Source of the DNA: a virus
IMG/VR virus record: IMGVR_UViG_3300009149_000086
Span: 1-41,994 of that record
DNA length: 41,994 bases
Strand: one strand, 5' to 3'
Notes under the pieces: model-generated
What the model saw: only the letters and a program-made list of their open reading frames with translations
Told to the model about the DNA's origin: nothing
Database searches by the model: none
Shown: in pieces, positions 5,384 to 41,994 of the stretch
How positions within the stretch are numbered: position 1 is the stretch's first letter
Layout of the letters: each line of letters begins with the position of its first letter
Made by a program: the position numbers and the translations under genes

Positions 5384-5385
5384 TA

Positions 5386-5415: not shown

Positions 5416-5419
5416 GAAA

Positions 5420-5908: not shown

Positions 5909-5946
5909 TTTTCAAATAGTAGAACTGTTCTACCAAAAACTAACTT

Positions 5947-24072: not shown

Positions 24073-24075
24073 GGG

Positions 24076-24106: not shown

Positions 24107-24110
24107 TAAC

Positions 24111-25116: not shown

Positions 25117-25124
25117 TTTTCAGA

Positions 25125-25132
25125 TATTTATA
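25125..25132 (+). promoter_or_regulatory. Late-promoter octamer TATTTATA
   Basis: Exact octamer 30 nt before the ATG at 25163. It provides a late start for the two genes that follow. Confidence 0.55.
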
Positions 25133-25162
25133 TGTATAACAAGAATAAAAAACTCCTCTAAC

Positions 25163-26109: not shown

Positions 26110-26132
26110 ATGTTCGATGTTATAAAAAAATT

Positions 26133-26159
26133 AAAAAGCGGGTTTTCCCGCTTTTTTTT
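26133..26159 (+). terminator. Rho-independent terminator after acidic protein gene
   Basis: A 10-bp stem AAAAAGCGGG / CCCGCTTTTT with loop TTTT and a T-run to 26159. It separates the 24-26 kb block from the gp32 promoter. Confidence 0.92.
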
Positions 26160-26168
26160 GTTAGGGGG

Positions 26169-26199
26169 TTGACAAAACGAAATTAATTGAGTATCTTTG
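26169..26199 (+). promoter_or_regulatory. Bacteroidetes-type promoter for gp32
   Basis: TTG (26169-26171), 20-nt spacer, TATCTTTG (26192-26199): a full match to the Bacteroidetes housekeeping consensus. It lies about 150 nt before the gp32 ATG and leaves a long A/T-rich leader. Confidence 0.85.
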
Positions 26200-26283
26200 T
26201 ACCAGTTAAGTTCGACACTAATAATGGATGAAATTAATTGAAAAAAAGTTGATATTTACTTGACTTTTTGGGTATTAAAACTA

Positions 26284-26291
26284 TATTTATA
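26284..26291 (+). promoter_or_regulatory. Late-promoter octamer TATTTATA before gp32
   Basis: Exact octamer 59 nt before the gp32 ATG, downstream of the host-type promoter. gp32 may therefore be made both early and late, as in T4. Confidence 0.5.
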
Positions 26292-26350
26292 ATAGTTCGA
26301 ACATAAACAATAAACAATGTACAAAAACATTAATAACGTACAAAAACAAC

Positions 26351-27286: not shown

Positions 27287-27309
27287 TGGTAGTCACCTAA
27301 TAACTAAAG

Positions 27310-27338
27310 AAAGAGTGACTTAATTGTCACTCTTTTTT
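27310..27338 (+). terminator. Rho-independent terminator between gp32 and uvsX
   Basis: A 10-bp stem AAAGAGTGAC / GTCACTCTTT, loop TTAATT, T-run to 27338. Only 20 nt separate it from the uvsX ATG and no promoter is visible there, so uvsX may depend on read-through. Confidence 0.9.
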
Positions 27339-27358
27339 TCTCTAATAAACACAACACA

Positions 27359-28513
27359 ATGGCAACAAGACCCACAAAGAAAACAGCAGCAAAGAAACCA
27401 ACTAAGAAAAATCCTTATGACCCTACCACTTTTAAGAAAGAGATGGGAATTGACGAAACGTCACAGAAAATGAAGCCAATTACTTGGCTTAAGTTCTCAG
27501 ATGGATATAATAAAGCGTTGGGGGTTCCAGGAATTCCAATCGGGTTCGGGTCTCAATTTATTGGGTTTAGTGATACTGGTAAGTCTACCGCAATGTATGA
27601 GGCAGTAGTAGCCGCACAAAAGATTGGTACATTTCCAATTATTGTAGATACTGAAGGTAACTGGTCTTGGGATTATGCTAAGAGTGTTGGTATCGAGTTT
27701 GAAGAATTCGTTAACGATAGTGGGGATGAAGATGTTAGAGGAGATTTCCTTTTCTTCCAAGATTATGATTTGGTTTCCATGTATGAGAAATTCGATTATA
27801 AAGCAGGTAAGATGACTTCTAAGCCGTTGAGAACTGTTGCCGTTATTGAGGACGTTGCGAGACTATTCAATGAGTTTGCGGATAAGGTCCTATTAGGACA
27901 ATTGGAACGAGATGTATTATTCATCTGGGATTCAGTAGGAACGGTAGATTGTTTCGCAAGCGTTCAATCATTGGTCGGTAACAACCAATGGAATGCTGGT
28001 GTGATGAAGAGAGCTTTCCAATCGTTCTTCAAGAAGATTACAAGAACAAGGAGAATCGACTTCCCTTATAATATGAGTATTGCTTCGGTAAACAAAGTGT
28101 GGTTAGATAATTCTAACATGCACCCAATTGTGAAGCAAGCTGGTGGTGAGGCATGGAGATTCTACAACCGATTCATTGTGCATACTGGCGGTAAGACCAC
28201 CTCAAGTGCTGCAAGAAAGGAAGTGCAAGCAGATGGCCAAGTTATGAACTTTGGTGTTGAAACTGCAATCGAGGTAATCAAGAACCAAATCAATGGTCTT
28301 TCTAATAAGAAAGCTAAGATTTGTTCGACTCCTCATGGTTTCGTACATCCAGACGATTTGACTAAGTATAAGGCTGATAATAAAGCTTATTTCCAAAAGT
28401 TATTGGGAGTTGGTTCAGATGCTGAATTATCATTTACTACGATTGAGGCTACCGATAAGGACCCAGATTTCGAAGAGAATGATATGATTCAAATACAAGA
28501 CGAAGATGTTTAA
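27359..28513 (+). CDS. uvsX: UvsX recombinase (RecA family)
   Basis: A 384-aa strand-exchange ATPase (T4 UvsX 391 aa) that drives recombination-dependent replication and repair, loading onto gp32-covered DNA. Walker A is GFSDTGKST at 69-77. An acidic residue follows in IIVDTEGNWSWD (about 97-108), and the Walker B-type strand is VLFIWDSVG (about 181-190). The L1/L2 region and later strand (GEAWRFYNRFIVHTGG) are typical. The N-terminus is Lys/Thr-rich, and the C-terminus is acidic (DFEENDMIQIQDEDV). Start: ATG after AACACAACACA, no Shine-Dalgarno site. The gene lies directly after the gp32 terminator and 18 nt before the RNase H gene, the start of a replication operon. Confidence 0.95.
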   Translation: MATRPTKKTAAKKPTKKNPYDPTTFKKEMGIDETSQKMKPITWLKFSDGYNKALGVPGIPIGFGSQFIGFSDTGKSTAMYEAVVAAQKIGTFPIIVDTEGNWSWDYAKSVGIEFEEFVNDSGDEDVRGDFLFFQDYDLVSMYEKFDYKAGKMTSKPLRTVAVIEDVARLFNEFADKVLLGQLERDVLFIWDSVGTVDCFASVQSLVGNNQWNAGVMKRAFQSFFKKITRTRRIDFPYNMSIASVNKVWLDNSNMHPIVKQAGGEAWRFYNRFIVHTGGKTTSSAARKEVQADGQVMNFGVETAIEVIKNQINGLSNKKAKICSTPHGFVHPDDLTKYKADNKAYFQKLLGVGSDAELSFTTIEATDKDPDFEENDMIQIQDEDV

Positions 28514-28531
28514 TCCTTTAAAGATAATGCA

Positions 28532-29599
28532 GTGCGTAAATTGCCACCAAGAAATGGTGTAAAAGTTGAGAAACTAAACACTTTATTGATAGACGGGAAC
28601 GCTCTCTTTAAGAGAGGTTATCTCGGTAGTCCAGATGCTCTTAACAACAATGGTGACCACGTAGGTGGAATATACCAATTCGTTACAGTACTCAAGAAGT
28701 TATTATTGAAAGATGTATTCCATAAGGTCTATGTCTTTTGGGATGGTAATTTCAGCGGTAAACTGAGATGGGAGATATATAGCGATTATAAGATTGCTAG
28801 AGGTAAAGACTATGAAAATGGTACTGAGCCAGAGGATATAAATGAAAAGTATCAACAGTTCTTAGTTAAAGGATATCTTCACGACTTATCTATACGACAG
28901 TTAACAGACGAGGTTATCGAAGCCGATGATTTCATAGCGTTCTATTGCCTATCCAAACTAGATAATGAAGATATTACAATCTGCACTAGTGATAGGGATA
29001 TTTGTCAATTGATATCTGACGATATCAAGATATATCTTTGTGATAAGAAAGAGTATGTAACAACGAAGAATTATAATGACTATTTCAAACACTATTATAA
29101 GAATGTTGTTTTAATTAAGCAGATTGCTGGTGATGACTCAGATAGTATTGTGGGGATACAAGGTGTTAAAGAACCAACGTTGTTGAAACACTTCCCGATA
29201 CTGAAAGAGCGTGAATGTACGCTAGATGAGATATTGTTGGAAGCCCAACGACTTCAAGATGAGAGAAAGGCTGAAAAGAAGAAACCTCTTAAGGCTCTGA
29301 CGAACATTATAGAACGAGTTACGGTAGGCGTACAAGGAACTGCAATATATGAAGTGAATGACAGATTGGTTAATCTCACACAACCAATGTTAACTAAGAG
29401 TGGTATTGAGGACTTTCATACAATGTTGGAAGAACCTCTAAGTGAAGACAGAGATATTAAGAACGTCTACAAAATGATGGAAAGAGACGGAGTGGACCAA
29501 TTATTATCAGAGTATTATATGACGGATTACTTCCTTCCGTTCAAGAAATTGATAGATAGGGAGAATAGAATGACAAATAAACAACGAATAGAATCATGA
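28532..29599 (+). CDS. rnh: 5'-3' exonuclease / RNase H, T4 Rnh (FEN-1-like) family
   Basis: A 355-aa nuclease (T4 RNase H 305 aa) that removes RNA primers and adjacent DNA from lagging-strand fragments. Acidic metal-binding clusters in family order: LLIDGNALFKRGY (18-30), EADD (130-133), CTSDRDICQLI (about 151-161) and GDDSDSIVGIQGVK (about 200-213), the last being the helix-hairpin-helix entry. The start is GTG; no closer in-frame ATG precedes the first conserved strand, so GTG is accepted. A Lys-rich segment (about 245-255) may contact DNA. It ends with an ATGA overlap into the next gene, so translation is coupled within the replication operon. Confidence 0.88.
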   Translation: MRKLPPRNGVKVEKLNTLLIDGNALFKRGYLGSPDALNNNGDHVGGIYQFVTVLKKLLLKDVFHKVYVFWDGNFSGKLRWEIYSDYKIARGKDYENGTEPEDINEKYQQFLVKGYLHDLSIRQLTDEVIEADDFIAFYCLSKLDNEDITICTSDRDICQLISDDIKIYLCDKKEYVTTKNYNDYFKHYYKNVVLIKQIAGDDSDSIVGIQGVKEPTLLKHFPILKERECTLDEILLEAQRLQDERKAEKKKPLKALTNIIERVTVGVQGTAIYEVNDRLVNLTQPMLTKSGIEDFHTMLEEPLSEDRDIKNVYKMMERDGVDQLLSEYYMTDYFLPFKKLIDRENRMTNKQRIES

Positions 29600-30117
29600 A
29601 GAAAGAATATTACAATAGTAGAGACCGAAGAGACGAGGGTAAATTCGAATTCAAACTAACCATCAATGACCATATCATATGTCAGCGATACTTCCCTATC
29701 AATAATTACGATATGGAGGAGACATACGATGTTAAGGGTATGATGGATAGCCTAATGGGTATGCATAATAATGGTATGATGGGAAGTTTAGGTTTGATAC
29801 CTAACTACCTTAAGGAACGTTCGGTAGATTATCTATGGAAACACTATCGAGCATATGAGAAGCAAACTCCAGAGGATATTAATAGACAAGACATTTTCGA
29901 GAACGAAGATATCATAGGCTTCGAATTGAGATGTGATGGCCGACTAGTCGGCCAGAGTGCCTTTAGCGGTAACTTCTTCCCAACTAAGGTTAGATACGAT
30001 ATCAATATAAAAGGTAAAAATGACAGTAGGGGAAACGTTATTGTTAAGGGAATAATCCCAGAAATCTTCTCTGAGGTAAGAGGTTACATGTCAACTCCAA
30101 TAGAAGAGACTGTATGA
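29596..30117 (+). CDS. Unknown protein in the replication operon
   Basis: A 173-aa protein between RNase H and the helicase, overlapping both by ATGA. I do not recognise it. It begins with a charged strand region (KFEFKLTINDHIICQRYFPI). A Met/Gly-rich loop follows (MMDSLMGMHNNGMMGSLG, about 48-65), then a helix and a beta-rich C-terminal half (IIGFELRCDGRLVGQSAFSG, about 105-124). There is no catalytic or zinc motif. Coupling on both sides suggests a replication accessory role, for example a helicase loader (gp59 position in T4 is different), but sequence gives no support for a specific name. Confidence 0.7.
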   Translation: MKKEYYNSRDRRDEGKFEFKLTINDHIICQRYFPINNYDMEETYDVKGMMDSLMGMHNNGMMGSLGLIPNYLKERSVDYLWKHYRAYEKQTPEDINRQDIFENEDIIGFELRCDGRLVGQSAFSGNFFPTKVRYDINIKGKNDSRGNVIVKGIIPEIFSEVRGYMSTPIEETV

Positions 30118-31589
30118 GTACGAACCCAACAGACTTTGGATATCTAGATACGGATTTCCAAAGACGACTACTCAACCAAGTACTGGTCGATAGAAAGTAT
30201 GCGGAGGTCATCATTGAAATATTAGACCCGAACTATTTTAGTACGGAGCATCTAAGAAATGTGATGGTCGTAATCAAGAATGCTTATGAGAAGCATGAGG
30301 CTATACCAGACTTTGAAAGTCTTAAGGCTAGAGCATCGGCTAATATTAAGAGTGAGACCACACGTAAGTTCGCTCTTGCTGAAATAGGTAGAGTACAAGA
30401 GGCTAATCCTAACGATGCCCCTTGGGTTCAAGAGCAAGCATTGAAGTTCTGTAAACAACAAGAGCTTAGTAAGTCCGTACGAGAGATTCAGAGGATTATT
30501 GATGTAGGAGACTTAGATTCGTACGAAGAGTGCGTAGAAATCATCCAGAAGGCTTTACAAGCAGGTTCTAACGGTGATTTAGACATCTCTGTTACTTCTA
30601 ATGTAGAAGCGGTATTAGCAGACGACTTCCGTCAACCAGTACCAACAGGTATCAAAGGGTTGGATGACCTTATGAATGGTGGACTTGGACGAGCAGAACT
30701 TGGTATTATATTGGCACCATTTGGTGTGGGTAAAACTACTATGATTACTAAGATTGCTAACACAGCGATGGAGCAAGACCTAAATGTGTTACAAATCTTT
30801 TTCGAAGACCTACCAAAAGTTATACAGCGTAAGCACTATTCTTGTTGGACGGGATATGAACTAAACGACCTTCCTAATCATAAGGAAGAGATTATTGAAT
30901 TGGTCGCTAAGAAGGACGCTCAGAAGGGAGAAATCCGATTGGCCAAATTCTCTAGTGATGATACAACTATTCCTAAGATTCGTCAGTATATAAAGAAGAA
31001 GATTGCACAAGGTTTCCGACCTGATGTTATCCTATTGGATTACATTGACTGCGTACAGCCTAGTAAGACCTATGCTGATGCTAACGTAGCAGAAGGTTCT
31101 GTTATGCGACAGTTCGAGACTATGTTATCTGATTTCGATATCGTAGGATGGACCGCAATTCAAGGTAATAGAAGTTCAATCGGTGCTGAGGTAGTTCAGG
31201 CAGACCAAATGGCTGGCTCTATTAAGAAAGAAATGATTGGTCACTTCATTGTGAGTGTGGCTAAAACATTACCTCAGAAGGACAATGACACCGCAACACT
31301 TGCGATTCTTAAATCTAGATTCGGTAAGGACGGTATTACATTCCCTGACTGCACCTTTAATAATGCTACTATTCAAATTGATATTAGTGAAAGAAATGAC
31401 GTCCAAACGTTCATGGAACGACACGATGTTGAGGAGGCTAATCAGCAAGTAATGATTAATGCTGTATTAGATGAAGCTAACAAAAGAAGACAAGCTAGAG
31501 CAGAAAAAGAGGCTGCAAAGGAGGTGAATGTTGCATCTGAAAATAATACTGAAGAGGAAGTTACTGATACTGAGCAGGGTAAGTCGTAA
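30114..31589 (+). CDS. 41: Replicative DNA helicase, T4 gp41 / DnaB family
   Basis: A 491-aa hexameric helicase (T4 gp41 475 aa) that unwinds the fork and partners with primase. The helical N-domain spans about 1-165. The RecA-like motor begins VPTGIKGLDDLMNGGLGRAE, with Walker A APFGVGKTT at 201-209. Also present are IFFEDLPKVIQRK (motif 1a-like), Walker B DVILLDYIDCV (about 304-314) and WTAIQGNR (motif 3). It ends in a Glu/Lys/Thr-rich acidic tail. The start overlaps the previous gene (ATGA). A separate primase gene is not in the window. It is followed by the gp25 late gene after a 63-nt gap containing a TATTTATA motif. Confidence 0.92.
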   Translation: MSTNPTDFGYLDTDFQRRLLNQVLVDRKYAEVIIEILDPNYFSTEHLRNVMVVIKNAYEKHEAIPDFESLKARASANIKSETTRKFALAEIGRVQEANPNDAPWVQEQALKFCKQQELSKSVREIQRIIDVGDLDSYEECVEIIQKALQAGSNGDLDISVTSNVEAVLADDFRQPVPTGIKGLDDLMNGGLGRAELGIILAPFGVGKTTMITKIANTAMEQDLNVLQIFFEDLPKVIQRKHYSCWTGYELNDLPNHKEEIIELVAKKDAQKGEIRLAKFSSDDTTIPKIRQYIKKKIAQGFRPDVILLDYIDCVQPSKTYADANVAEGSVMRQFETMLSDFDIVGWTAIQGNRSSIGAEVVQADQMAGSIKKEMIGHFIVSVAKTLPQKDNDTATLAILKSRFGKDGITFPDCTFNNATIQIDISERNDVQTFMERHDVEEANQQVMINAVLDEANKRRQARAEKEAAKEVNVASENNTEEEVTDTEQGKS

Positions 31590-31626
31590 GTAGATAAATT
31601 ATTGGTCTTTTATTTGGCTAGCGGTA

Positions 31627-31634
31627 TATTTATA
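31627..31634 (+). promoter_or_regulatory. Late-promoter octamer TATTTATA before gp25
   Basis: Exact octamer 18 nt before the GTG start at 31653. It marks the switch from the replication block back to structural genes. Confidence 0.6.
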
Positions 31635-31652
31635 TTATGATAAACACTTACA

Positions 31653-32039
31653 GTGGCTCAAGGTAAATTCATAAATATAAATTATCCGTTTAAGGACAGT
31701 GTTGAGGGATTCTTCTTAGATTTAACTAAGACAGACTCTACTGCTATTAAAGCAGACCTAATGCACCTAATTCTTACAAGGAAAGGTCAAAGACTATACA
31801 TGCCAAATTTCGGCACGGACCTAATGTTATACATATTCGAGCCAAGTGACGCAAAAACTTTCTCTGAGATTAAGCTAGATATAAAGGAAACGGTAAAGAA
31901 ATATATTCCTAATCTGGTAATCGAAGACGTTATTGTAGAACAAGACCCTACTTCAGAGCATAGAGCTACTATACGGATTGACTACACTATAACGGATGAC
32001 GTTTTTGAAGAAAAAGACTTCGTGTTAATCAACTTATAA
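31653..32039 (+). CDS. 25: Baseplate wedge protein, T4 gp25 / GPW family
   Basis: A 128-aa wedge subunit (T4 gp25 132 aa) that sits where the sheath meets the baseplate and starts sheath assembly. The fold signature is clear: DLMHLILTRKGQRLYMPNFG (about 38-57) with the R.GQR...P.FG element, then LYIFEP, and a C-terminal strand-helix-strand set (IPNLVIEDVIVEQDP, ATIRIDYTI). The start is GTG, placed 18 nt after the late motif; no ATG lies near the conserved N-terminus. It is followed by the ribonucleotide reductase gene after an 87-nt gap. Confidence 0.9.
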   Translation: MAQGKFININYPFKDSVEGFFLDLTKTDSTAIKADLMHLILTRKGQRLYMPNFGTDLMLYIFEPSDAKTFSEIKLDIKETVKKYIPNLVIEDVIVEQDPTSEHRATIRIDYTITDDVFEEKDFVLINL

Positions 32040-32126
32040 TAAGCGTTTAAAGCGCATTTCTTGACAATATGAGCGAAAGCGGATACCATATTGTACGGGA
32101 TAATATTTTCTTTAAAAACAAAATTA

Positions 32127-35100
32127 ATGAAAGGAACAAAAATACTGTCTGATATTAAATTCTACAATGATTACTCGAAATACGATGAGGTCCTTGATAG
32201 AAAGCAGACATGGGAAGAGAAGGTTGAAATGGTTATGGATATGCACCGCCAGAACCCAAAATTTAAGAGTGCATTTGAAAACCCACAATTTGTGGGTTTC
32301 TTCGATGAGGCGGTAGAAGCATATAAGGATAAGCTAGTATTAGCGTCACAACGCTCACTACAATTCAGTGGTAAGCCAATCATGAAACATAACGCTAAGA
32401 TGTACAACTGTACTGTGTCATACTGTGACAGAAGTAGAGTATTCCAAGAGGCTATGTATATGTTGTTATGTGGGTGCGGTGTTGGTATGTCATTCATGAA
32501 AGAACACGTAGTTAAAATGCCTACGATTTCTAAAAGAACAAACGGAACTAAGACATATGTAATCGAAGACTCAATCGAAGGATGGGCTGATGCGGTTGGT
32601 GTATTGATGTCGTCATATTTTGACAGTGACCATACGTTTCCAGAATATGAAAATAGTGTGGTACACTTTGATTATTCACAGATAAGACCTAAAGGTGCGT
32701 TAATTTCTGGAGGCTTCAAAGCTCCTGGACCTGATGGCTTAAAACAGTCGCTTGAGAGGATTGAAACATTGATGGAGGGTGTAGTTACCGATGCACCTGC
32801 GAAGTGGCGCCCAATCGTGGCTTATGACGTTCTAATGCATTGTTCTGATGCAGTGTTGAGTGGTGGAGTTAGACGTTCAGCGACTATCGCATTATTCAGT
32901 CACGATGACGAAGAAATGATGAACGCTAAGACGGGTGACTGGCTTGGAGAAAATCCACAAAGAGCGAGGTCTAACAATTCAGTTGTTTTGATAAAGGACC
33001 AGATTGAAAGATTGGCATTTGATGAGATTTTTAAGGCCACTAAAGAGTTCGGAGAGCCAGGATTTGTGTTCTCAGAATCGCATGAGGTCGTATATAATCC
33101 TTGTGTTACTAAGGACACTACAGTATTAACGTCTGATGGTGTTAGAACTGTCGAAGAACTAATAGGGAAAGAATTCAAAGCCGTTGTAGATGGTAAAGAA
33201 TACGACACGCTATCTGAAGGATTCTGGAAAACTGGAGTCAAGCAAGTATACGAATTATCTACTTTAGAGGGTAATAAACTTAGATTAACTGACAATCATA
33301 AATTATTATGTGTTAATAATGACGGTAATGAAGAGTGGGTAGAACTTAAAGATATAGAGATAGGTGGTAAAATTAAGTTAAATCGGCATACCGATTATTC
33401 TTGGGGTGGAGACGATGAGAAAGATACTCAAAGAGGATGGTTATTGGGTAGTTTAGTTGGAGATGGAACATTTGATGATACATCGGCAATATTGAGATAT
33501 TGGGGTGGAGACGATAGCGTTAAAGAACAGGCGGTATCCTATTTGAATGACAATTATAAGAAAGCTAAAACGTTAGTGGGTACCACATATAAAGACATAT
33601 TAAGTATCTATAGTTCTGGTTTAGCGGAAGAAGCTAGCGAATATGGTATTATTAGGAACGATAAAACCCCTAATGTGGAGTTAGAAAGAGAGTCGTCTAA
33701 CTTCCTTATAGGATATTTAAGGGGGTTATTTGACGCTGATGGGTCAATGCAAGGAACCCAAATTAAAGGTGGGTCAGTGAGGTTAACGCAGGTTAATTTA
33801 GAAATACTGGAACAAGTCCAGCGTATTTTATTAAGATTAGGTATTAATACTACCATATATAAGAATAGGCGGGATGCTGGTTGGTATAGTTTACCAGACG
33901 GAAAAGGTGGTATGGCTGATTATTATTGTAAAGCGGTACACGAATTAATAATATCTAAGGTAAATATAATAACCTTTAACGATAGAGTTGGGTTTTCAGT
34001 TACCGAAAAGCAAAATAAGTTAAGTAAATTCATATCTAATTATAAGCGTAAACCCAATAAAGATAATTTTACTGTAACAGTCGCCTCAATTATTGAAGAT
34101 GGTATTGAAGATGTTTATGATGTTACAGTGGATGAAGTACATAGATTTGATGCTAATGGTATAGTCGCCCATAATTGCGTGGAAATAGGTATGGTTCCTA
34201 GAACCGAAGATGGTAGAAGTGGGTGGCAAGTATGTAACCTAACTGAAATCAATGGTGGTAAATGTGATGATGCTGAGACCTTCTATAAGGCTTGTGTTGC
34301 GTCAGCGTTTATCGGTACACTACAAGCATCTTATACTGACTTTAGATACCTGACACCAGAGAGTAAAGAAATCTGCGATAGAGAGGCTCTAATTGGATGT
34401 TCTATCACAGGGTTTATGAATAACCCTAAGATATTATTTGACCCAGAGATTCTTGAAAATGGTGCGAATATGATTAAAGAAATTAACGCAGTTATTTCAA
34501 AGATGATTGGTATTAATAAAGCAGCAAGAACTACTTGTGTTAAACCTAGTGGAAACGCTTCTGTATTGTTAGAGACTACATCTGGAATTCATGGTGACCA
34601 CTCTAAGAACTACTTCCGTATTATGCAAATTAATAAGGAGGAAGAAATTGCTCAATATCTTAACAACAAATATCCAGACCTTATCGAGGACTCTGTGTGG
34701 TCATCTACAAATGCCGACTACGCTTTGTTTGTTCCGATTAAAGCTGATAAGAAAACTAGACTTAAAGAGGACCTATTGGGTGTTAAACAATTGGAGTATG
34801 TTAAGTTAGTTCAACAACATTGGGTGGAAACAGGTACTAACGAAAACTTATGTTTGATTCCAGAAGTTCGTCACAATGTATCTAATACTATCACAGTGGA
34901 TAACTGGGAAGAAGTACAAGAATATATTTGGGAAAACAAGAAGTGGTTCTCAGGTATTAGTCTATTATCTCATCATGGTGATAAAGTATTCAACCAAGCT
35001 CCGTTTACTGAAGTGTTGCAAGTTGATGAAATCATCGATAAGTATGGTCACGCATCAATGTTTGTTTCGGGATTAATTGTAGACGCACTTCACCTGTTCG

Positions 35101-35420
35101 ATAACAACCTGTGGAAAGCATGTGACTACCTAGTAAACTCCGAACTACCAATTGAAGGTACTAGGCAATCAGTTCTATTGAAGAAAGACTGGATAAGTAA
35201 AGCCAAGAAATTCGGTAAGAAGCACTACCAAGATGTACAAGAGCTAACATTCTGTATGAAGGATGTGCATTTGGCCCATAAGTGGATGAAGACCAGTCGG
35301 TCAATCGGAAACTTGGACGTTGCACCTATTTTGGAGAAGATAAAGCCAGAATATGTAGAAGTGAACAAATTCTCTGCTGTTGCTTGCAGTGGTGGAAGTT
35401 GTGAAATTACGTATTTATAA
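32127..35420 (+). CDS. nrdJ: Class II (adenosylcobalamin-dependent) ribonucleotide reductase containing an intein
   Basis: The precursor is 1097 aa; after removal of a 358-aa intein the enzyme is about 739 aa, the size of monomeric B12-dependent reductases of the Lactobacillus leichmannii type. It makes deoxyribonucleotides. Visible features: KMYNCTVSYC with the first redox Cys, MLLCGCGVGMSF, SGGVRRSATIALFSHDD, and the catalytic N-P-C-x-E motif rebuilt across the splice junction (NP before the intein, CVEIG after). Later come TCVKPSGNASVLLETTSGIHG and a C-terminal CSGGSC (CX4C) thiol pair for re-reduction. I start at the ATG at 32127 after an A-rich leader; the frame is open to a TTG at 32091, which is less likely. 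No second subunit gene is nearby, as expected for class II. A strong terminator follows. Confidence 0.92.
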   Translation: MKGTKILSDIKFYNDYSKYDEVLDRKQTWEEKVEMVMDMHRQNPKFKSAFENPQFVGFFDEAVEAYKDKLVLASQRSLQFSGKPIMKHNAKMYNCTVSYCDRSRVFQEAMYMLLCGCGVGMSFMKEHVVKMPTISKRTNGTKTYVIEDSIEGWADAVGVLMSSYFDSDHTFPEYENSVVHFDYSQIRPKGALISGGFKAPGPDGLKQSLERIETLMEGVVTDAPAKWRPIVAYDVLMHCSDAVLSGGVRRSATIALFSHDDEEMMNAKTGDWLGENPQRARSNNSVVLIKDQIERLAFDEIFKATKEFGEPGFVFSESHEVVYNPCVTKDTTVLTSDGVRTVEELIGKEFKAVVDGKEYDTLSEGFWKTGVKQVYELSTLEGNKLRLTDNHKLLCVNNDGNEEWVELKDIEIGGKIKLNRHTDYSWGGDDEKDTQRGWLLGSLVGDGTFDDTSAILRYWGGDDSVKEQAVSYLNDNYKKAKTLVGTTYKDILSIYSSGLAEEASEYGIIRNDKTPNVELERESSNFLIGYLRGLFDADGSMQGTQIKGGSVRLTQVNLEILEQVQRILLRLGINTTIYKNRRDAGWYSLPDGKGGMADYYCKAVHELIISKVNIITFNDRVGFSVTEKQNKLSKFISNYKRKPNKDNFTVTVASIIEDGIEDVYDVTVDEVHRFDANGIVAHNCVEIGMVPRTEDGRSGWQVCNLTEINGGKCDDAETFYKACVASAFIGTLQASYTDFRYLTPESKEICDREALIGCSITGFMNNPKILFDPEILENGANMIKEINAVISKMIGINKAARTTCVKPSGNASVLLETTSGIHGDHSKNYFRIMQINKEEEIAQYLNNKYPDLIEDSVWSSTNADYALFVPIKADKKTRLKEDLLGVKQLEYVKLVQQHWVETGTNENLCLIPEVRHNVSNTITVDNWEEVQEYIWENKKWFSGISLLSHHGDKVFNQAPFTEVLQVDEIIDKYGHASMFVSGLIVDALHLFDNNLWKACDYLVNSELPIEGTRQSVLLKKDWISKAKKFGKKHYQDVQELTFCMKDVHLAHKWMKTSRSIGNLDVAPILEKIKPEYVEVNKFSAVACSGGSCEITYL
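33102..34175 (+). mobile_element. Intein with LAGLIDADG homing endonuclease, in the reductase active site
   Basis: 358 codons in frame. Residue 1 is Cys (CVTKDTTVLTSDG, block A). Block B is RLTDNHKLL (T-x-x-H). Two LAGLIDADG motifs are present: GWLLGSLVGDG (Asp at intein residue 121) and YLRGLFDADG (Asp-Ala-Asp, last Asp at 213). Block F/G is VYDVTVDEVHRFDANGIVAHN, ending His-Asn. The +1 residue is Cys, which is also the reductase radical cysteine. All residues needed for class 1 splicing are present and the endonuclease motifs keep their acidic residues, so both activities are probably intact. Boundaries are set by C1 and HN/C+1 and by the rejoined NPCVEIG motif. Confidence 0.93.
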
Positions 35421-35439
35421 TCATCACTAATTAAATGTT

Positions 35440-35467
35440 AAAAAGAGACTTCGGTCTCTTTTTTTTT
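35440..35467 (+). terminator. Rho-independent terminator after the reductase gene
   Basis: A 10-bp stem AAAAAGAGAC / GTCTCTTTTT with a TTCG tetraloop closed by C-G, and a T-run to 35467. Same design as the terminator after the sheath gene. Confidence 0.93.
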
Positions 35468-35496
35468 GAATTATTCATAATGTCTACCTGTGGAAA

Positions 35497-35607
35497 CCCA
35501 CTCATCAACCTTGCTGTGGGTGGTAGTCAACCACCCAATCGCATGTCAGTCACCGCAAGGTGCCTTGCAAGCCCATTCATCGCTTTAGCGTGGATGGGTA
35601 GTTGACT
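35497..35607 (+). ncRNA. Structured RNA-like element: two related, covarying hairpins
   Basis: Two similar units (35497-35531 and 35572-35606) each fold as a bulged hairpin. Unit 1: CCACTCA-T-CA / TG-TGGGTGG (35498-35523). Unit 2: CCATTCA-T-CGC-TTTA-GCG-TGGATGG (35573-35597). A C-G pair in unit 1 is T-A in unit 2, so pairing is kept. Sequence after unit 1 (AGTCAAC, 35525-35531) can pair with sequence after unit 2 (GTTGACT, 35601-35607), enclosing the whole. Between them CACC-GCAA-GGTG (35551-35562) is a GNRA-type hairpin. Its GCAAGG can also pair with CCTTGC in the loop of unit 1 or at 35563-35568. No known RNA class was recognised. Confidence 0.45.
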
Positions 35608-35608
35608 C

Positions 35609-35616
35609 TATTTACT
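35609..35616 (+). promoter_or_regulatory. Variant late-promoter octamer (TATTTACT)
   Basis: Same variant as at 2822, 28 nt before the ATG at 35645 and immediately after the hairpin element. Confidence 0.3.
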
Positions 35617-35644
35617 TTATTAACAGTATTCTTATATTAGCATC

Positions 35645-35836
35645 ATGAATGAATATTATGATAATTATACCTTATTAAAAGAATTAAACGTTGGTGATAG
35701 GTATATTACTAAATTAGATAGTGAATGTATATACTTAAAGTGGTTAGGAGAAGACCGACACTTAGTATTTAATATTGATGCTGGTACTGTATATGAAGTA
35801 CCACATGGAAGATTCCCAGTTTTTAAGATAAAATAA
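35645..35836 (+). CDS. Small protein of unknown function
   Basis: A 63-aa protein (NEYYDNYTLLKELNVGDRYI near the N-terminus, then KWLGEDRHLVFNIDAGTVYE). The pattern of short strands with Gly turns suggests a small beta-barrel, but no family is recognised. It is AT-rich in base composition, like the endonucleases. It stands alone between the hairpin element and the convergent 3' end of the minus-strand endonuclease (28 nt apart), with no other gene in its unit. It could be a real small phage gene or part of the mobile cassette. Confidence 0.55.
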   Translation: MNEYYDNYTLLKELNVGDRYITKLDSECIYLKWLGEDRHLVFNIDAGTVYEVPHGRFPVFKIK

Positions 35837-35864
35837 TTTGGTATGAGAGTTAATTACTACCCTA

Positions 35865-37484
35865 TTAAGTATATAGGGCATATTTTTTGTGTCCACAATC
35901 ATATATTCTGTAATAACCATTTTCAAACATTATTTCGTTAGCGGTTTTATTTTTGTCAAAACCCATTTCAACTAATTTATGTTTTTGGTATTTAATTCTA
36001 TTATCTCGATATTTTCCCCTTATGTAGTGGAAATTTGGTTTAGTGTCATATACAAACTCCATATTCAAAGAGTTGTATAGTTCACCCTGACTCCAACGCC
36101 TATCGGCATAACTTACTATTTCTGCTGGTTTATGGGTTTTGATGAAGTGGTTTAATAATCTACTAGCACCACCCACAACTGTTGTGTTTAATTTATTACA
36201 GAACCTCAGTAGTTCATATTCGGAGGGTTGTAAGATGGGTCTATGACCAAATGTCATCATGGACACAAGTTCTTCGTTATGATATAACCCTAAGTTAATC
36301 TTACTACCCACAGTGTCTTGAATGTGGTTACAACTTAAGAAAGCCCTCTTATCTTTATTATTAACTTCCTTAATTTCACATTTTCTGGCATATATCTTAG
36401 TATCAAGAATACCCAATATAGATTTTAATCTACTTTCTACTATCCCCCTTTTATGCAACCATTCATCTTCAAATATGTGAATCAATTGAACCCCTTTAGA
36501 TTCACATAATTCAGTCTTATTCAAATGGTAATTCTTATCGATAAATAATTCAGAATGCCAATATAGACCATTGAACTCAATGGCGAGGTTGTGAGATGGT
36601 ATATAAATGTCTAACTCCTTACCGTTTAACATACCCCTATCTTTTGTAATAACAGTCAAATCCAATGACTCTATAAACTCTACTAGTTCATTTTCTAACG
36701 TTGATTCAGAATTAGAACATGATTTACAACCATAATTGGTTAAGTGGTAGTTAGGTGTTATTAATTGTTCACCATGTTCTGGACATATTACAATCATAGG
36801 GGTTAACCAGTTCACATACATTACCTTAGAATAATCGTATTTATCCCCATGCATTTCTTTGGCTCTTCTAATAAAAGATTCGGTATCGAATACTTTATCT
36901 AAACATCTAAAACAACCTTGTCGTTTAGATATGTGGTTATTAGGTGATTGGCTGAACTCACCATGTTCTGGACATATAATAGTTACTGGCATACGGGATG
37001 CTTTATATACCACTTTAGAATAATCATACTTATCTCCATGCGTTTCTTTACCTTTTAATTTGAAAAGTTTACTATCTAATTTAGTTGTCCCACCACAGTA
37101 TTTACAACCCTTACCACTTAAATGGTTAGTTGGTGTTTGTTCAAACTCACCATGTATTGGACAAATAATAGTTACATTTAACCTATTGGTCACATAGTTC
37201 ACTTTAGAATAATTATACTTACCACCATGAATCGTTGTCGCTTCATGGATGAAATTGGTGATACCTTTACGCTGTTTTTTGATTCTAGACTCTTCACCAC
37301 ACTTGGGACATCCCTGTTTATTATTCACATGTTTCAATGGTTTCTGTTCGAATCCCCCATGTTCTGGACATATGATGGTTAATTTAGTGTTATTATTAAC
37401 ATAAACCGATTTAGTATAATCATACTTATCACCATGTATCATTATGGATTCCTCTATGAATTCTTTAGTTGTTTTCTTTTTCAT
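35865..37484 (-). CDS. Second homing-type endonuclease: DUF723-like repeats plus Vsr-like nuclease
   Basis: A 539-aa paralogue of the 3695-5347 protein, with the same order. Four zinc-type repeats lie at about 9-62, 78-130, 143-194 and 203-256 (HGDKYDYSK..Y, CPEHGEF, GC..C). The nuclease core at about 260-358 has KELDIYIPSHNLAIEFNGLY, then WHSE, HLNKTELC and LIHIFEDEW. The conserved C-terminal module carries ELLRFCN, GGASRLLNHFI, SYADRRWSQGELY and YYRIYDCG. The FDGLYWH Asp of the first copy is Asn here (FNGLYWH). I use the ATG at 37484; the frame stays open to 37544, but that extension lies across its own promoter. It sits immediately upstream of gp6, facing away. Confidence 0.88.
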   Translation of the reverse strand: MKKKTTKEFIEESIMIHGDKYDYTKSVYVNNNTKLTIICPEHGGFEQKPLKHVNNKQGCPKCGEESRIKKQRKGITNFIHEATTIHGGKYNYSKVNYVTNRLNVTIICPIHGEFEQTPTNHLSGKGCKYCGGTTKLDSKLFKLKGKETHGDKYDYSKVVYKASRMPVTIICPEHGEFSQSPNNHISKRQGCFRCLDKVFDTESFIRRAKEMHGDKYDYSKVMYVNWLTPMIVICPEHGEQLITPNYHLTNYGCKSCSNSESTLENELVEFIESLDLTVITKDRGMLNGKELDIYIPSHNLAIEFNGLYWHSELFIDKNYHLNKTELCESKGVQLIHIFEDEWLHKRGIVESRLKSILGILDTKIYARKCEIKEVNNKDKRAFLSCNHIQDTVGSKINLGLYHNEELVSMMTFGHRPILQPSEYELLRFCNKLNTTVVGGASRLLNHFIKTHKPAEIVSYADRRWSQGELYNSLNMEFVYDTKPNFHYIRGKYRDNRIKYQKHKLVEMGFDKNKTANEIMFENGYYRIYDCGHKKYALYT

Positions 37485-37501
37485 ACCTTCTAACGCATAC
37501 T

Positions 37502-37509
37502 TATAAATA
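37502..37509 (-). promoter_or_regulatory. TATTTATA octamer on the minus strand before the endonuclease
   Basis: The late octamer in the orientation of the endonuclease gene, 17 nt before its ATG and just downstream of its host-type -7 box. It may add late expression or may be chance in an AT-rich leader. Confidence 0.4.
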
Positions 37510-37513
37510 TACA

Positions 37514-37544
37514 CAAATATACAAAAAATTATTGACATTGACAA
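37514..37544 (-). promoter_or_regulatory. Bacteroidetes-type promoter for the second minus-strand endonuclease
   Basis: On the minus strand, TTG (37544-37542), 20-nt spacer, TATATTTG (37521-37514): a full TTG-N20-TAnnTTTG match about 30 nt before the ATG at 37484. Confidence 0.75.
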
Positions 37545-37560
37545 TTAAACGATTACCCTA

Positions 37561-37568
37561 TATTTATA
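37561..37568 (+). promoter_or_regulatory. Late-promoter octamer TATTTATA before gp6
   Basis: Exact octamer 12 nt before the gp6 ATG at 37581, close beside the divergent endonuclease promoter. Confidence 0.6.
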
Positions 37569-37580
37569 TGAAAAGACACA

Positions 37581-39401
37581 ATGGCTAGAAAAATACCCTA
37601 TTTCGCAAGAAACTTTGCTGACATCAGAACCGAACTTGTTTCTTATGTTAGACAATATTACCCAGATATTTTTAATGATTTCAACGATGCCTCTGTAGGT
37701 ATGATGTTATTGGAATTGAATGCTGCGGTTGGTGATATGCTATCATTCCAGACCGACAGAATGTTCCAAGAGACTCAAATCAACTACGCTCAAGAACGTT
37801 CAAGTATTTTAAGTATGGCTAGAACATTTGGGTTGAAGATTCCAGGACGTAGACCATCAGTCACCATCTGTGACTTCAGCGTTATTGTACCAGTAAACGG
37901 AGATTCATTTGACCTATCATACGCACCACTTATTAGACGTGGGGCACAAGTATCAGGTGCTGGTAAAGTATTCGAATCACTCAATGATATCGATTTCTCC
38001 TCACCGTTCACAGTGGGAGGAATTCCAAATAGAATTGTCCTTCCTAATATAGATAGTTCTGGAAACATTATTAATTATACGTTGACCAAGCGAGAAATAT
38101 TTATAAATGGCGTTACGAAGGTGTTTAATCGAGTTATTAATGAAAATGATGTAAAGCCCTTCTTCGAATTAGTTCTACCCGACAATGACGTTATATCGAT
38201 TAATTCGATTATCGCAATAGAAGGAACTAACTTCACAGTAACACCTACTATTGACCAATTCTTGGACGAGGACTTAAGATGGTATGAAATGGACGCACTG
38301 GCTGAAGATAAAATTTTCATTCCAGATGACTCTATTGGTTCTGATAACCCATCAGTACAAATCGGAAGATGGTTAAGAGTTAATAGGAGATTTATTCGTG
38401 AATACACTGACGTAGGTTTCATTAAAATTATATTTGGTGGTGGTTCGCAAGATATCGGCTCATTATGTGATTTCGATGTCGATGAGGCGTTAGTTGGTAG
38501 AATAGGTGACTTTATTAATAATCTAAGTCTTGGACAAACATTGGAGCCGAGTACAACAATGTTCATTAGTTATAGAGTTGGAGGCGGTGCGGCCACGAAT
38601 ATTGGACCTAATGTTATTACACAAGTAAACAATGTTAATATGTCTGTTAACGGCTCTGACCCATCTATTAATGGTTCGGTACAAGCTTCGTTAACTGTTA
38701 ATAATCCACTACCTGCATTGGGCGGTAAAGATGAACCATCGGTATCCGAATTAAGGAACTTGGTTAGATATAATTTTGCTGCTCAAAATAGGGCGGTAAC
38801 ACTAAAGGATTATAAGTCTAGAATTGCTCTAATGCCAGGAGAGTTTGGCGTTCCATTTAGAAGTGGAATACTAGAACAACAGAATAAAATCAGTATCTAC
38901 GTATTGTCTCTAGGGAGTGACGGCACACTAACCAATCAATCTACAAGTGCTCTAAGAAGTAATATCGCCAACTACCTATCTGACTATAGAATGATTAACG
39001 ACTATGTTGAAGTTAACAATGGTAAAATCATTAATCTAGCATTTGAGTGTGGGTTATATATCGATAAGCAATTTTCTGAGAGTCAGATAATTTCTGAGGT
39101 AATCAGTAAAATACAAGAATACTTCGACATTAATGGTTGGGATATGGGTGAAAACATCTATATGAGTCCACTAATTGAAGTAATAAACAATGTTGGTGGG
39201 GTATTGAATGTTATGGAACTAAAAGTCTTTAATAAGGTAGGTGATGGATATTCACTTAATGAGAGTCCACAACCATTATTAAATGAAACCACTGGGGAAT
39301 TGGACTTGTCTGATAATTTTGCATTAATTGATGACCCAGTTAGTATGTTTGAAATTAAAAATCCAAGTGTGGATATTCGCGTCCGAGTTAAGACTAATTA
39401 A
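37581..39401 (+). CDS. 6: Baseplate wedge protein, T4 gp6-like
   Basis: A 606-aa wedge protein (T4 gp6 660 aa) that dimerises to form the ring holding the baseplate wedges together. The N-terminal signature is strong: ADIRTELVSYVRQYYPDIFN, then DASVGMMLLELNAAVGDMLS and FQTDRMFQET (about 13-67). The middle is a set of beta domains. The C-terminal half contains the gpJ/gp6-type element VSELRNLVRYNFAAQNRAVT with LKDYKSRIALMPGEFG (about 390-428), followed by a ferredoxin-like fold with YVEVNNGKIINLAFECGLYI. The start follows AAAAGACACAATG. The last 15 bases (GTTAAGACTAATTAA) are nearly repeated at the end of the following HNH gene. Confidence 0.92.
   Translation: MARKIPYFARNFADIRTELVSYVRQYYPDIFNDFNDASVGMMLLELNAAVGDMLSFQTDRMFQETQINYAQERSSILSMARTFGLKIPGRRPSVTICDFSVIVPVNGDSFDLSYAPLIRRGAQVSGAGKVFESLNDIDFSSPFTVGGIPNRIVLPNIDSSGNIINYTLTKREIFINGVTKVFNRVINENDVKPFFELVLPDNDVISINSIIAIEGTNFTVTPTIDQFLDEDLRWYEMDALAEDKIFIPDDSIGSDNPSVQIGRWLRVNRRFIREYTDVGFIKIIFGGGSQDIGSLCDFDVDEALVGRIGDFINNLSLGQTLEPSTTMFISYRVGGGAATNIGPNVITQVNNVNMSVNGSDPSINGSVQASLTVNNPLPALGGKDEPSVSELRNLVRYNFAAQNRAVTLKDYKSRIALMPGEFGVPFRSGILEQQNKISIYVLSLGSDGTLTNQSTSALRSNIANYLSDYRMINDYVEVNNGKIINLAFECGLYIDKQFSESQIISEVISKIQEYFDINGWDMGENIYMSPLIEVINNVGGVLNVMELKVFNKVGDGYSLNESPQPLLNETTGELDLSDNFALIDDPVSMFEIKNPSVDIRVRVKTN
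39387..39401 (+). repeat. Direct repeat, copy 1 (end of gp6)
   Basis: GTTAAGACTAATTAA encodes the last residues and stop of gp6. Copy 2 at 40340-40354 (GTTAAGACTAACTAA) matches at 14 of 15 bases and ends the inserted HNH gene, so both proteins end VKTN. Confidence 0.6.
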
Positions 39402-39435
39402 TTCAAATAATAATGTTGTTTTAATGACGGCCACC

Positions 39436-39443
39436 TATTTATA
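39436..39443 (+). promoter_or_regulatory. Late-promoter octamer TATTTATA before HNH gene
   Basis: Exact octamer 14 nt before the ATG at 39458. The inserted endonuclease therefore uses the phage late signal, unlike the minus-strand ones. Confidence 0.55.
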
Positions 39444-39457
39444 ATAAACGGATAACA

Positions 39458-40354
39458 ATGAATTGTATTAAATGTGATGGTAAGGTAACTAAGTTTGGTA
39501 AGATAAATAAGGAGCAGAGGTATCGATGTGGTGATTGTAATATTACGTTTACCGACACCTCTTTGATTAAAATTAAGGAGCGAAAACTTAAATATGAAAA
39601 AATTATAGATATGTACACCATAAGTGGTATGTCAACAACTGAAATAGGTAAGGTGTTAGGTACTTCATCTACGGTACCACAAAGAATATTAAAAGGTATG
39701 GGTATTACTAGAACTATAAGTGAAGCTAAGAAGGGTAAATTAAGAGGTACTTCATTACCCACAGATAAAATAATAAGGTTGTATTGTGAAGGTACTCCAA
39801 CAACAAAAATAGCTAAAGATTTGGGTTATTCTAAGACTTCTGTTTTAAAAGTGCTCATGAGTAATAATATACCTAGAGATAATGAGTATGAATATCATCA
39901 CCCATATGATGACGCCATAAAATGGCTATACATAGAAGGCAGCTCAATGTTAGAGGTATCAAAACTACTTAAAATACCATACACCACCATTAATACTAGA
40001 TTACATAAGTTTGGTTTGGTTAGAACTGAGGATAAATTTAAGATTGGTATGGATTACGATACTTATTTGGAAAATCTACCAGCTTATGATAAATATCGTA
40101 ATGATGTTAATAAGGTAACGAATGAGCAACCTATAGAGATATTAGATAATTGTGATAAGCGTGGGTTATGTGGTGTGGATGGTGCGTACCAATTAGACCA
40201 TAAGTTTTCGATATTAGAAGGCTTTAAACAAGGTGTCGAACCAGAAGTTATTGGTAATATAACTAATTTGGGGTTTATCCCTTGGGAAGATAATCTTAAT
40301 AAGGGTAGTGACTGTTCTATCACTTTAGAAGAATTAAGGGTTAAGACTAACTAA
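39458..40354 (+). CDS. HNH homing-type endonuclease with zinc ribbon and helix-turn-helix repeats
   Basis: A 298-aa protein. The N-terminal zinc ribbon has C3, C6, C24 and C27 (CIKC...RCGDCNITF), followed by helix-turn-helix-like units: MSTTEIGKVLGTSSTVPQRI (about 58-77), TPTTKIAKDLGYSKTSVLKV (about 112-131) and SSMLEVSKLLKIPYTTINTR (about 162-181). This ribbon plus HTH front end is like that of transposase DNA-binding subunits. The C-terminal HNH core is YQLDHKFSILEGFKQGVEP, then IGNITNLGFIPWEDNLNKGS (about 244-284), the usual D-H...N...H/N-K layout of T4-type HNH nucleases. Inserted directly after gp6 and ended by a near copy of the gp6 3' end. Nuclease activity is inferred. Confidence 0.88.
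   Translation: MNCIKCDGKVTKFGKINKEQRYRCGDCNITFTDTSLIKIKERKLKYEKIIDMYTISGMSTTEIGKVLGTSSTVPQRILKGMGITRTISEAKKGKLRGTSLPTDKIIRLYCEGTPTTKIAKDLGYSKTSVLKVLMSNNIPRDNEYEYHHPYDDAIKWLYIEGSSMLEVSKLLKIPYTTINTRLHKFGLVRTEDKFKIGMDYDTYLENLPAYDKYRNDVNKVTNEQPIEILDNCDKRGLCGVDGAYQLDHKFSILEGFKQGVEPEVIGNITNLGFIPWEDNLNKGSDCSITLEELRVKTN
40340..40354 (+). repeat. Direct repeat, copy 2 (end of HNH gene)
   Basis: GTTAAGACTAACTAA, 14 of 15 bases identical to the end of gp6 at 39387-39401. The two copies bracket a 938-base segment that holds the HNH gene. Confidence 0.6.
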
Positions 40355-40381
40355 CCTTTAGTTTGTGAAATAATAGTACTA

Positions 40382-40389
40382 TATTTAAA
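40382..40389 (+). promoter_or_regulatory. Variant late-promoter octamer (TATTTAAA)
   Basis: Two mismatches from TATTTATA, 10 nt before the GIY-YIG gene ATG at 40400. Confidence 0.3.
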
Positions 40390-40399
40390 AGAAAAAGTT

Positions 40400-40921
40400 A
40401 TGAGTTGTGGAATCTATAAAATTATTAATGATGTTGATGGTAAGATGTATATAGGTAGCTCAATCACGTTAGGTAAAAGATTAAAACATCATGAATATAG
40501 GTTGTTATCTAATGCTCACCATAACAACTATTTACAGAATTCTGTAAATAAGTACGGTATCGATAAATTTAGGTTTGAAATTATCGAAGAATGTAATGAA
40601 GATAATTTAGTAGATAGAGAGAATTATCATATTAAACTTAATAAAGCTAACGATTCGACATTTGGATTTAACTTAGCTACAGTTAACGAATTTAGACGTA
40701 ATTGCTATAATAATGAGGTTAAAGTAAAAAATTCTAAACTAGGGTTGAAACTGAACGGTAATTTCACTAAATTTAAAGCCATTAATGTCGATACTGATGA
40801 TGAAATGATATTTGATAATTTAGTGGATGCTGCAACCTACTTGATACAGGAAGGGTTTATAACCGCTAAAAAGGCTGTGCTTAGCAAAGAATTTCCGAAT
40901 GTCTTAGAGGTATTAAGATAA
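40400..40921 (+). CDS. GIY-YIG homing-type endonuclease
   Basis: A 173-aa nuclease of the segA/I-TevI type. The N-terminal GIY-YIG domain covers about 1-95: GIYKI at 4-8, KMYIGSS near 15-21, LGKRLKHHEYRLLS with the conserved Arg (about 24-37), KYGIDKFRFEIIEEC (about 52-66), then a Glu-containing helix LVDRENYHIKLNKA. The C-terminal 75 residues contain a NUMOD-like DNA-binding segment (FKAINVDTDDEMIFDNLVDA, then ATYLIQEG). It directly follows the HNH gene, so two unrelated nucleases lie in tandem between gp6 and the membrane-protein gene. No terminator separates them. Confidence 0.9.
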   Translation: MSCGIYKIINDVDGKMYIGSSITLGKRLKHHEYRLLSNAHHNNYLQNSVNKYGIDKFRFEIIEECNEDNLVDRENYHIKLNKANDSTFGFNLATVNEFRRNCYNNEVKVKNSKLGLKLNGNFTKFKAINVDTDDEMIFDNLVDAATYLIQEGFITAKKAVLSKEFPNVLEVLR

Positions 40922-41002
40922 ACACTGGTAGTAATTGGACTATAAGAAAAATGGTTGCAAACCATAAGTGGATAATAATAGAGTAAAAAAAGATATAATA
41001 TA

Positions 41003-41341
41003 ATGTCGTGTGGATGTAAATCAAATGTTAAGACTAAAGAGCCAGAGGTTCGAGTGAATAAAGGGTTCGAATGGAAATTTGATGGTAATACGGCAGCAAA
41101 ATGGGCGACATTTGTCTTATTTTCGGTATTATCTCCATTAATGTTACCATTCATCGTTGTTGCGCTGTATTATGCAATAATCAAGAATAAGAAACTGGAT
41201 GTTATGCAAACATTTCGTGTTCTTCTTAGAACTGCGATAAATATGCGGAATAAAGAACAAGACGCACTAGAAGAACTAGATTTGGATAGCGCTGAAGTAC
41301 TTGAAAAGGTAGTAGAATCGGTAGTACAAGAGAATGTCTAA
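41003..41341 (+). CDS. Small membrane protein of unknown function
   Basis: A 112-aa protein. A hydrophobic segment at about 33-58 (WATFVLFSVLSPLMLPFIVV and following ALYYAII) could form one long or two short membrane passes. It is flanked by a basic N-terminal part with a CxC (MSCGCKSNVK) and a basic stretch after it (KNKKLDV). The C-terminal third is acidic and helical (KEQDALEELDLDSAEVLEKV). No lipobox or signal peptide of a known type is seen. The last 8 bases overlap the start of the next, very large structural gene. The function is unknown; a role at the host membrane is plausible from the topology. Confidence 0.7.
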   Translation: MSCGCKSNVKTKEPEVRVNKGFEWKFDGNTAAKWATFVLFSVLSPLMLPFIVVALYYAIIKNKKLDVMQTFRVLLRTAINMRNKEQDALEELDLDSAEVLEKVVESVVQENV

Positions 41342-41994
41342 ATCAATACGAATACGTACAACACCTAATGGTGGTGATAAATTTGTGAAGATAAATCTTG
41401 AACAAGATTTCGACTTTGTAGAAATATTATCGCTTAAGATTTCTCAGAAAGAGCTTTATACTAAGTTCTGCTCTGATTATGGGGCAATAGTGGGCCGAGT
41501 CATTGTTAATAATGGTTTTGGTGTTCCTAATGCTAAGGTAAGCGTATTCGTACCAGTATCTGACATAGATTCGTTAGACCCAGAGATTGCTGGGTTATAT
41601 CCGTTTGAAACAATTGCGGATACGGACGTTGATGGTACTAGATACAACCTACTACCAAATAGTAATGAAACGAATGACGATTGTTTCACACCAGTCGGCA
41701 CATTCCCAGACAAACGACAGTTTTTAGATAATGACGAGCTATTGGACATTTATTGTGAGTATTATAAATTCACAACGACAACCAATGAAGCTGGTGACTA
41801 CATGATTTTCGGAGTACCTACTGGTGCTCATATCATATATGTCGAGGCTGATATGTCTGACATCGGAGTGATAACTCAGAAGCCATATGACTACATTCGT
41901 AGAGGTTCGTCTGAAGAGAACTTTGATTCGACAACTAAATTCAGAAGAGAGGACAATATGGACTCTATGAATAACATTGTTAATCGGTCTCCCG
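41334..41994 (+). CDS. Large virion protein, N-terminal part (3' partial)
   Basis: The frame is open from the ATG at 41334 to the window end (220 residues seen). It begins MSKSIRIRTTPNGGDKFVKI with a strand-rich head. Then comes a region like a carboxypeptidase-regulatory or Ig-type beta sandwich: GRVIVNNGFGVPNAKVSVFV (about 53-72) and a second half TNEAGDYMIFGVPTGAHIIY (about 151-170). Such domains decorate large baseplate or tail proteins of marine T4-like phages. In T4 the genes after gp6 are gp7 and gp8, so a wedge role is possible but not shown. It starts inside the 3' end of the membrane-protein gene (8-base overlap), which suggests coupled translation. Confidence 0.75.
   Translation, partial: MSKSIRIRTTPNGGDKFVKINLEQDFDFVEILSLKISQKELYTKFCSDYGAIVGRVIVNNGFGVPNAKVSVFVPVSDIDSLDPEIAGLYPFETIADTDVDGTRYNLLPNSNETNDDCFTPVGTFPDKRQFLDNDELLDIYCEYYKFTTTTNEAGDYMIFGVPTGAHIIYVEADMSDIGVITQKPYDYIRRGSSEENFDSTTKFRREDNMDSMNNIVNRSP

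Follow-up and report, generated by a model that had tools for sequence, protein, structure and literature searches.

A 128-bp phage segment read as a non-autonomous IS200/IS605-family insertion with a TnpB omegaRNA scaffold

Introduction

Shortly after the terminator of a ribonucleotide reductase (nrd) gene, the phage DNA analysed here carries two similar hairpins, and the question that they raise is whether they belong to an RNA of a new kind or to something already known. The window, by which we mean the whole stretch of 41,994 nucleotides that was analysed, had received a first-pass annotation in which the hairpins were tandem units of a new RNA element kept for its structure. The units lie where they had been placed (CCCACTCATC..TGGGTGG at 35497 and CCCATTCATC..TGGATGG at 35572), they do share a bulged T and differ by a C-G/T-A exchange, and a GNRA-type hairpin with a GCAA tetraloop (35551-35562) does lie between them. 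The name given to the whole had to be abandoned, as the hairpins correspond to the left end (LE) and right end (RE) of an IS200/IS605 element that is absent from sibling phages. The 128-bp segment at 35479-35606 on the + strand is read here as a non-autonomous IS200/IS605-family insertion with a complete TnpB omegaRNA scaffold, an identity that we consider close to certain (probability about 0.9). What looked like a new RNA is thereby explained as a known mobile element in its minimal form. Its parts are listed in Table 1.

Boundaries and ends of the element

The segment is missing from sibling phages. In two of these (G003 and G005), identity of 70-81% runs along both flanks of the site and the element is skipped, and empty sites are present in L002, L004 and L005. 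An unbiased boundary scan against the empty sites of three siblings confined the left edge to 35470-35480 and the right one to 35605-35607. Its best combined solutions gave a missing block of 124-137 bases, the right edge of which mostly coincided with the GTTGAC end. The ends themselves are fixed by TTCAT on the left and TTGAC on the right. A left edge after TTAT (35474/35475), a sequence at which IS605 cleavage has been reported (PMC9956272), fitted the boundary scan about equally well; 35479 is preferred because all LEs share TTCAT. The extent first annotated is corrected accordingly on its left side, where the true start lies about 18 bases earlier.

In all six related LEs, TTCAT stands 11-17 nt before a foot of the G(G/A)GAAAC type, and such sharing was reached in none of 2000 shuffles; five further distinct LE flanks, found later, fit TTCAT as judged by eye. 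There is no duplication of the flank at either element edge, and the insertion lies 3' of a fixed short target.

Table 1. Features of the insertion and its flanks (window coordinates)
Feature	Position	Strand	Basis
Whole non-autonomous IS200/IS605 element, 128 bp	35479..35606	+	Boundary scan, TTCAT and TTGAC ends, absence from siblings
TTCAT, insertion target and left cleavage site (C_L), presumed TAM; outside the element	35474..35478	+	Comparison of LE flanks
LE foot GGAAAC (putative G_L)	35492..35497	+	Kept in LEs of L073, L078, L080, L110 and others
LE hairpin (hairpin A; putative TnpA substrate), bulged T	35498..35523	+	84% identity to L073 LE over 51 bases
omegaRNA stem 1, GGGTGG 35518-35523 / CCACCC 35531-35536; loop holds pseudoknot strand	35518..35536	+	Covariation in 14 omegaRNAs; formed in MFE fold
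Relic of tnpB 3' end, last 21 codons and stop (VVNHPIACQSPQGALQAHSSL*)	35523..35588	+	tblastn of L073 TnpB, 21/21 identical; translation
GTCAAC, 5' strand of the pseudoknot, paired to GTTGAC 35601-35606	35526..35531	+	C-G to T-A compensatory change in L078/L080
omegaRNA stem 3 region, including GCAA-tetraloop hairpin 35551-35562	35541..35569	+	MFE fold; covariance-model alignment
RE foot GCAAG (putative G_R)	35567..35571	+	CAAG precedes the RE hairpin in all aligned TnpB REs
RE hairpin (hairpin B), also omegaRNA stem 4, bulged T, TTTA tetraloop	35572..35598	+	Identical in L073
GTTGAC, 3' strand of the pseudoknot; its TTGAC is the element end and right cleavage site (C_R)	35601..35606	+	All related REs end in TTGAC; boundary scan
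Host flank TCTATTTACTTTATTA, would-be 16-nt guide of the omegaRNA	35607..35622	+	Position by ISDra2 analogy

Both ends of the element have subterminal imperfect hairpins that match those of a tnpB-carrying element, L073, described below, and the bulged T common to hairpins A and B is the bulge of related ends too. The exchanged base pair is the fifth pair of the LE and RE hairpins and reads C-G, T-A or A-T across both ends of four related elements. Folded as DNA, the RE hairpin reaches a z of -3.3, and the LE hairpin, which has lost its outermost base pair, is weak (z -1.5). Each foot is complementary to a cleavage site, GAA of GGAAAC to the TTC of TTCAT and CAA of GCAAG to the TTG of TTGAC. 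Such complementarity is presumably what is expected if the transposase reads its sites by base pairing in the manner of IS608, and from that mechanism we infer a pairing role for both feet.

Genomic neighbourhood

The nrd terminator sits just upstream of the element, and the element is without an internal promoter, so its transcription is uncertain. The class II ribonucleotide reductase gene itself (32091-35420) is split by an intein with a LAGLIDADG domain. A 63-aa gene starts downstream of the element at 35645 and may be subject to a secondary effect of it. Farther along, the - strand at 35865-37544 encodes a 559-aa zinc-finger-repeat protein (DUF723, treble clef) that is probably a homing endonuclease. 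In sibling L005 the 559-aa zinc-finger-repeat gene comes directly after the nrd terminator, and in L002 and L003 another gene is found there; because of this difference, the site after the terminator looks like an insertion hot spot.

Origin from a tnpB-carrying element

A search of viral contigs with a pattern containing an IS200/IS605-type end (GTCAAC..AAGCCC..GGGTAGTTGAC) gave 18 loci. Some of these are true HEARO loci; in the others, which are of the TnpB type, the match extends over the 3' end of a tnpB gene. The window falls with the TnpB-type loci, on the + strand. A second pattern, specific to that type, found L073 on another viral contig (G001), a 1,333-bp element that runs from TTCAT to TTGAC and encodes a 385-aa TnpB (Pfam Cas12f1-like TNB and OrfB_IS605). 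Over the omegaRNA and RE, the window and L073 are identical at 80 of 81 bases, and the element is the only sequence shared between the L073 contig and window positions 24000-41900. The overlap of the omegaRNA with the 3' end of tnpB is present in the window only as a relic of 21 C-terminal codons. The window element is shown to be an internally deleted derivative of an L073-like tnpB insertion sequence, with about 1.2 kb and almost all of tnpB gone.

The deletion fused the left-end hairpin to the start of the guide RNA, and the whole scaffold from stem 1 onward was retained. The LE (GTGGGTGG) and the guide RNA have GGGTG in common at the junction, a sign that the deletion may have arisen through microhomology. 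The guide RNA is joined to the LE at GGGTG, and therefore the stem-1 arm that was lost is supplied by the LE hairpin, the 3' arm of which doubles as the 5' arm of omegaRNA stem 1. A single arm of DNA would be put to two uses, in the left-end transposase hairpin and in stem 1 of the guide RNA. As a separate observation, the usual zinc-finger cysteines of the TNB region are absent from the L073 TnpB (5312-6469, - strand) and its relatives (the L053, L056 and L070 group), in which the RuvC-like D/E/D residues are kept, as judged by eye.

The omegaRNA scaffold

The + strand holds a complete TnpB omegaRNA scaffold at 35518-35606 that agrees with TnpB omegaRNAs in sequence and structure, with stem 1, the pseudoknot, a stem 4 with a TTTA loop and the TTGAC end. 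Ten other TnpB omegaRNAs, a set to which L073, L078, L080 and the window did not belong, were used to build a covariance model; within the window it matches once, at 35515-35606 (50.8 bits, E=1.8e-12). Across 14 omegaRNAs including the window (nine distinct rows, with columns picked by hand), 99% of cells in stem 1 and the pseudoknot are paired and four pairs have compensatory changes. These helices have a covariation score of 0.419; shuffles gave 0.114, and sliding gave no more than 0.063.

These results also bear on what had been proposed about the fold. The outer helix AGTCAAC/GTTGACT does pair, and its identity is that of the omegaRNA pseudoknot. The covariation that the first-pass annotation had named as a check exists in relatives, although these are homologous mobile elements at other loci and not syntenic leaders. 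Selection on RNA structure is borne out for the middle and right part, where stem 1 and the pseudoknot of the omegaRNA have compensatory changes, but not for the two hairpins as such, which are an LE and an RE.

Folded as RNA, the + strand beats all 200 shuffles (z -3.9), and so does the - strand (z -3.2); therefore fold energy alone gives no choice of strand and no identity. Hairpin A is not part of the minimum-energy RNA fold, in which its 3' arm pairs with 35531-35536 to form guide-RNA stem 1. This stem is the counterpart of stem 1 in ISDra2, for which cryo-EM has established the same stem order, a pseudoknot that joins the loop of stem 1 to the pre-guide region, and a UUUA loop in stem 4 (PMC10097598). 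ISDra2 RNA that begins at stem 1 (Trim1) is fully active, making stem 1 its 5' limit (PMC10097598). Within the flank that would serve as guide, CTATTTA is preserved in the empty sites of siblings L002 and L004.

Alternative identities

Two other identities were weighed. The first-pass annotation had suggested a cis-acting leader or a separate regulatory phage RNA, unrelated to transposition, and such an RNA would suit both the stability of the fold and the location, after the nrd terminator and ahead of a small gene. However, siblings do without the segment at the same site, an unrelated contig carries a transposon homologous to it, and no Rfam family is reached in it at the gathering threshold (a tRNA search of the segment likewise gave nothing), so a 5' leader or other regulatory RNA is very unlikely. 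A HEARO/IscB-type omegaRNA on the - strand had in its favour an Rfam match there to HEARO (RF02033; 24.4 bits, E=0.0025, in E-value mode) and a - strand flank that reads ATGA, like the NTGA TAM of IsrB (PMC9581776). The 24.4 bits nevertheless fall far short of the gathering score of 83, the alignment passes over most of the middle of the 211-position model, and true HEARO loci that have the same end pattern reach 127-178 bits. The TnpB-type model, by comparison, gives its 50.8 bits on the + strand, although it also matches HEARO loci through the shared transposon end, and the parent element encodes a TnpB by its Pfam TNB and OrfB_IS605 matches. HEARO RNAs contain an IS200/IS605-type transposon end. 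The comparison shows that the weak Rfam call on the other strand came from this shared end, and a HEARO RNA at this locus is extremely improbable. In the surroundings of such an RNA, the nrd gene would come after it, and the nearest - strand ORF, at 35865-37544 on its 5' side, matches zinc-finger families.

Proposed mechanism and function

The likeliest role is that of an element of the MITE/PATE kind that relies on TnpA in trans for its movement and possibly offers the guide TCTATTTACTTTATTA to a TnpB in trans. In the single-stranded DNA form, a Y1 transposase (TnpA) provided in trans would bind both bulged hairpins, excise the element and insert it 3' of TTCAT. An RNA from the + strand would be made up of the complete, minimal omegaRNA scaffold and, after it, a 16-nt guide derived from the flank. 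TnpB provided in trans by the host or by an element of a co-infecting phage could then be directed by this guide to cleave the empty site, and such cleavage would favour copying of the element. That the window element has a functioning guide RNA is a tentative proposal, which we hold to be somewhat improbable. It is also conceivable, though unlikely in our judgement, that guide-only IS200/IS605 elements form a class in phages, without the nuclease gene but still with a complete, selectable TnpB guide RNA; these would parasitise the TnpB and TnpA of the host or a co-infecting phage, so that TnpB would cut the empty sites of rival phages to the benefit of a 128-bp element. Were the guide used in trans, the element would amount to a selfish gene drive of very small size in phages, and TnpB guides would be separable from their nuclease in nature.

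The same identity allows a different view of the functional half, namely that the segment is a dead scar, an immobile deleted copy with no working guide RNA and a structure that was inherited rather than selected. The missing promoter and the lost base pair of the LE hairpin agree with this, as do the facts that the element is single-copy and that no TnpB is encoded in the window. Against it, both cleavage sites and both feet are intact, the deletion spared the whole scaffold from stem 1, the omegaRNA and RE match an intact element at 80 of 81 bases in a phage contig otherwise unlike the compared half of the window, and two further guide-only elements occur in another phage. We regard a dead scar as quite possible, a little short of an even chance.

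TnpA was not found in the related and sibling phage contigs searched, a set to which the window did not belong. No close TnpB relative was found at E<1e-40 in 296 sampled genomes from the phylum of G017 (one host guess, searched with no positive control), and at E<1e-30 the L073 TnpB matched nothing in named phages. In nucleotide searches of phages and plasmids there was no match, or none over the element itself that merited attention, and exact patterns of the specific hairpin stem gave none in viral contigs. A scan of a genome collection produced a single match, inside a SusC-like gene, that was judged to be chance.

Related elements and comparison with known systems

The two further guide-only elements are L063 (reverse complement of 7241-7600) and L110 (1217-1611), tnpB-less omegaRNA elements of roughly 360-400 bp on phage contig G027, in which only distant TnpBs were found. 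Like the window element, they consist of an LE, an omegaRNA and an RE at a TTCAT target with no tnpB; unlike it, they keep an LE-proximal leader of about 190 bp. The two have LE and leader in common over about 190 bp. Their guides differ. A near-consensus promoter-like site (TTGACA-17-TATATT) lies in the right orientation in L063, while L110 fails the same scan. Guide-only derivatives are thus recurrent in phages.

Isolated ends were also seen. Solo right-end hairpins of another IS605 family (GTGAACTACCC..GGGCTTC) lie in G001 at 7235-7312, 9131-9227, 18249-18316 (-) and 2651-2728 (+), and in G015 at 15284-15377 (-). At least two of those in G001 (9131 and 18249) are at the stop codon of a phage gene, with TGA inside GTGAAC, and the element end may supply the stop of the gene. 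In L119/L122, L121/L127 and L124/L125, LEs identical or nearly identical to those of tnpB elements are followed by other DNA and not by tnpB; each is either an LE on its own or part of an element with different cargo.

The literature searched, which took in only a minority of subscription papers, yielded no account of a guide-only TnpB element carried by a phage. Standalone omegaRNAs are known for IscB (PMC9581776) and resemble that of the window in being guide RNAs without an adjacent nuclease gene, but RNA of the HEARO/IscB type has its guide on the 5' side, whereas the TnpB-type RNA of the window has it on the 3' side. The omegaRNA of ISDra2 TnpB has the same stem 1, pseudoknot, stem 3 and stem 4 with a UUUA loop, although ISDra2 is a full tnpA/tnpB element with a TTGAT target and the window element has no tnpB and a TTCAT target (PMC10097598). 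The layout of an LE, a tnpB tail and an RE is itself already known from a PATE-like IS605 element of Halanaerobium hydrogeniformans, which lacks tnpA and retains 28 nt of LE, hairpin included, the final 58 nt of tnpB and an entire RE (PMC7290912). That element resides in a bacterial chromosome where full copies are present, has an RE of 160 nt and was described as ends only (PMC7290912). The window element, by contrast, measures 128 bp in total, is carried by a phage, and reuses an arm of its LE as stem 1 of the omegaRNA.
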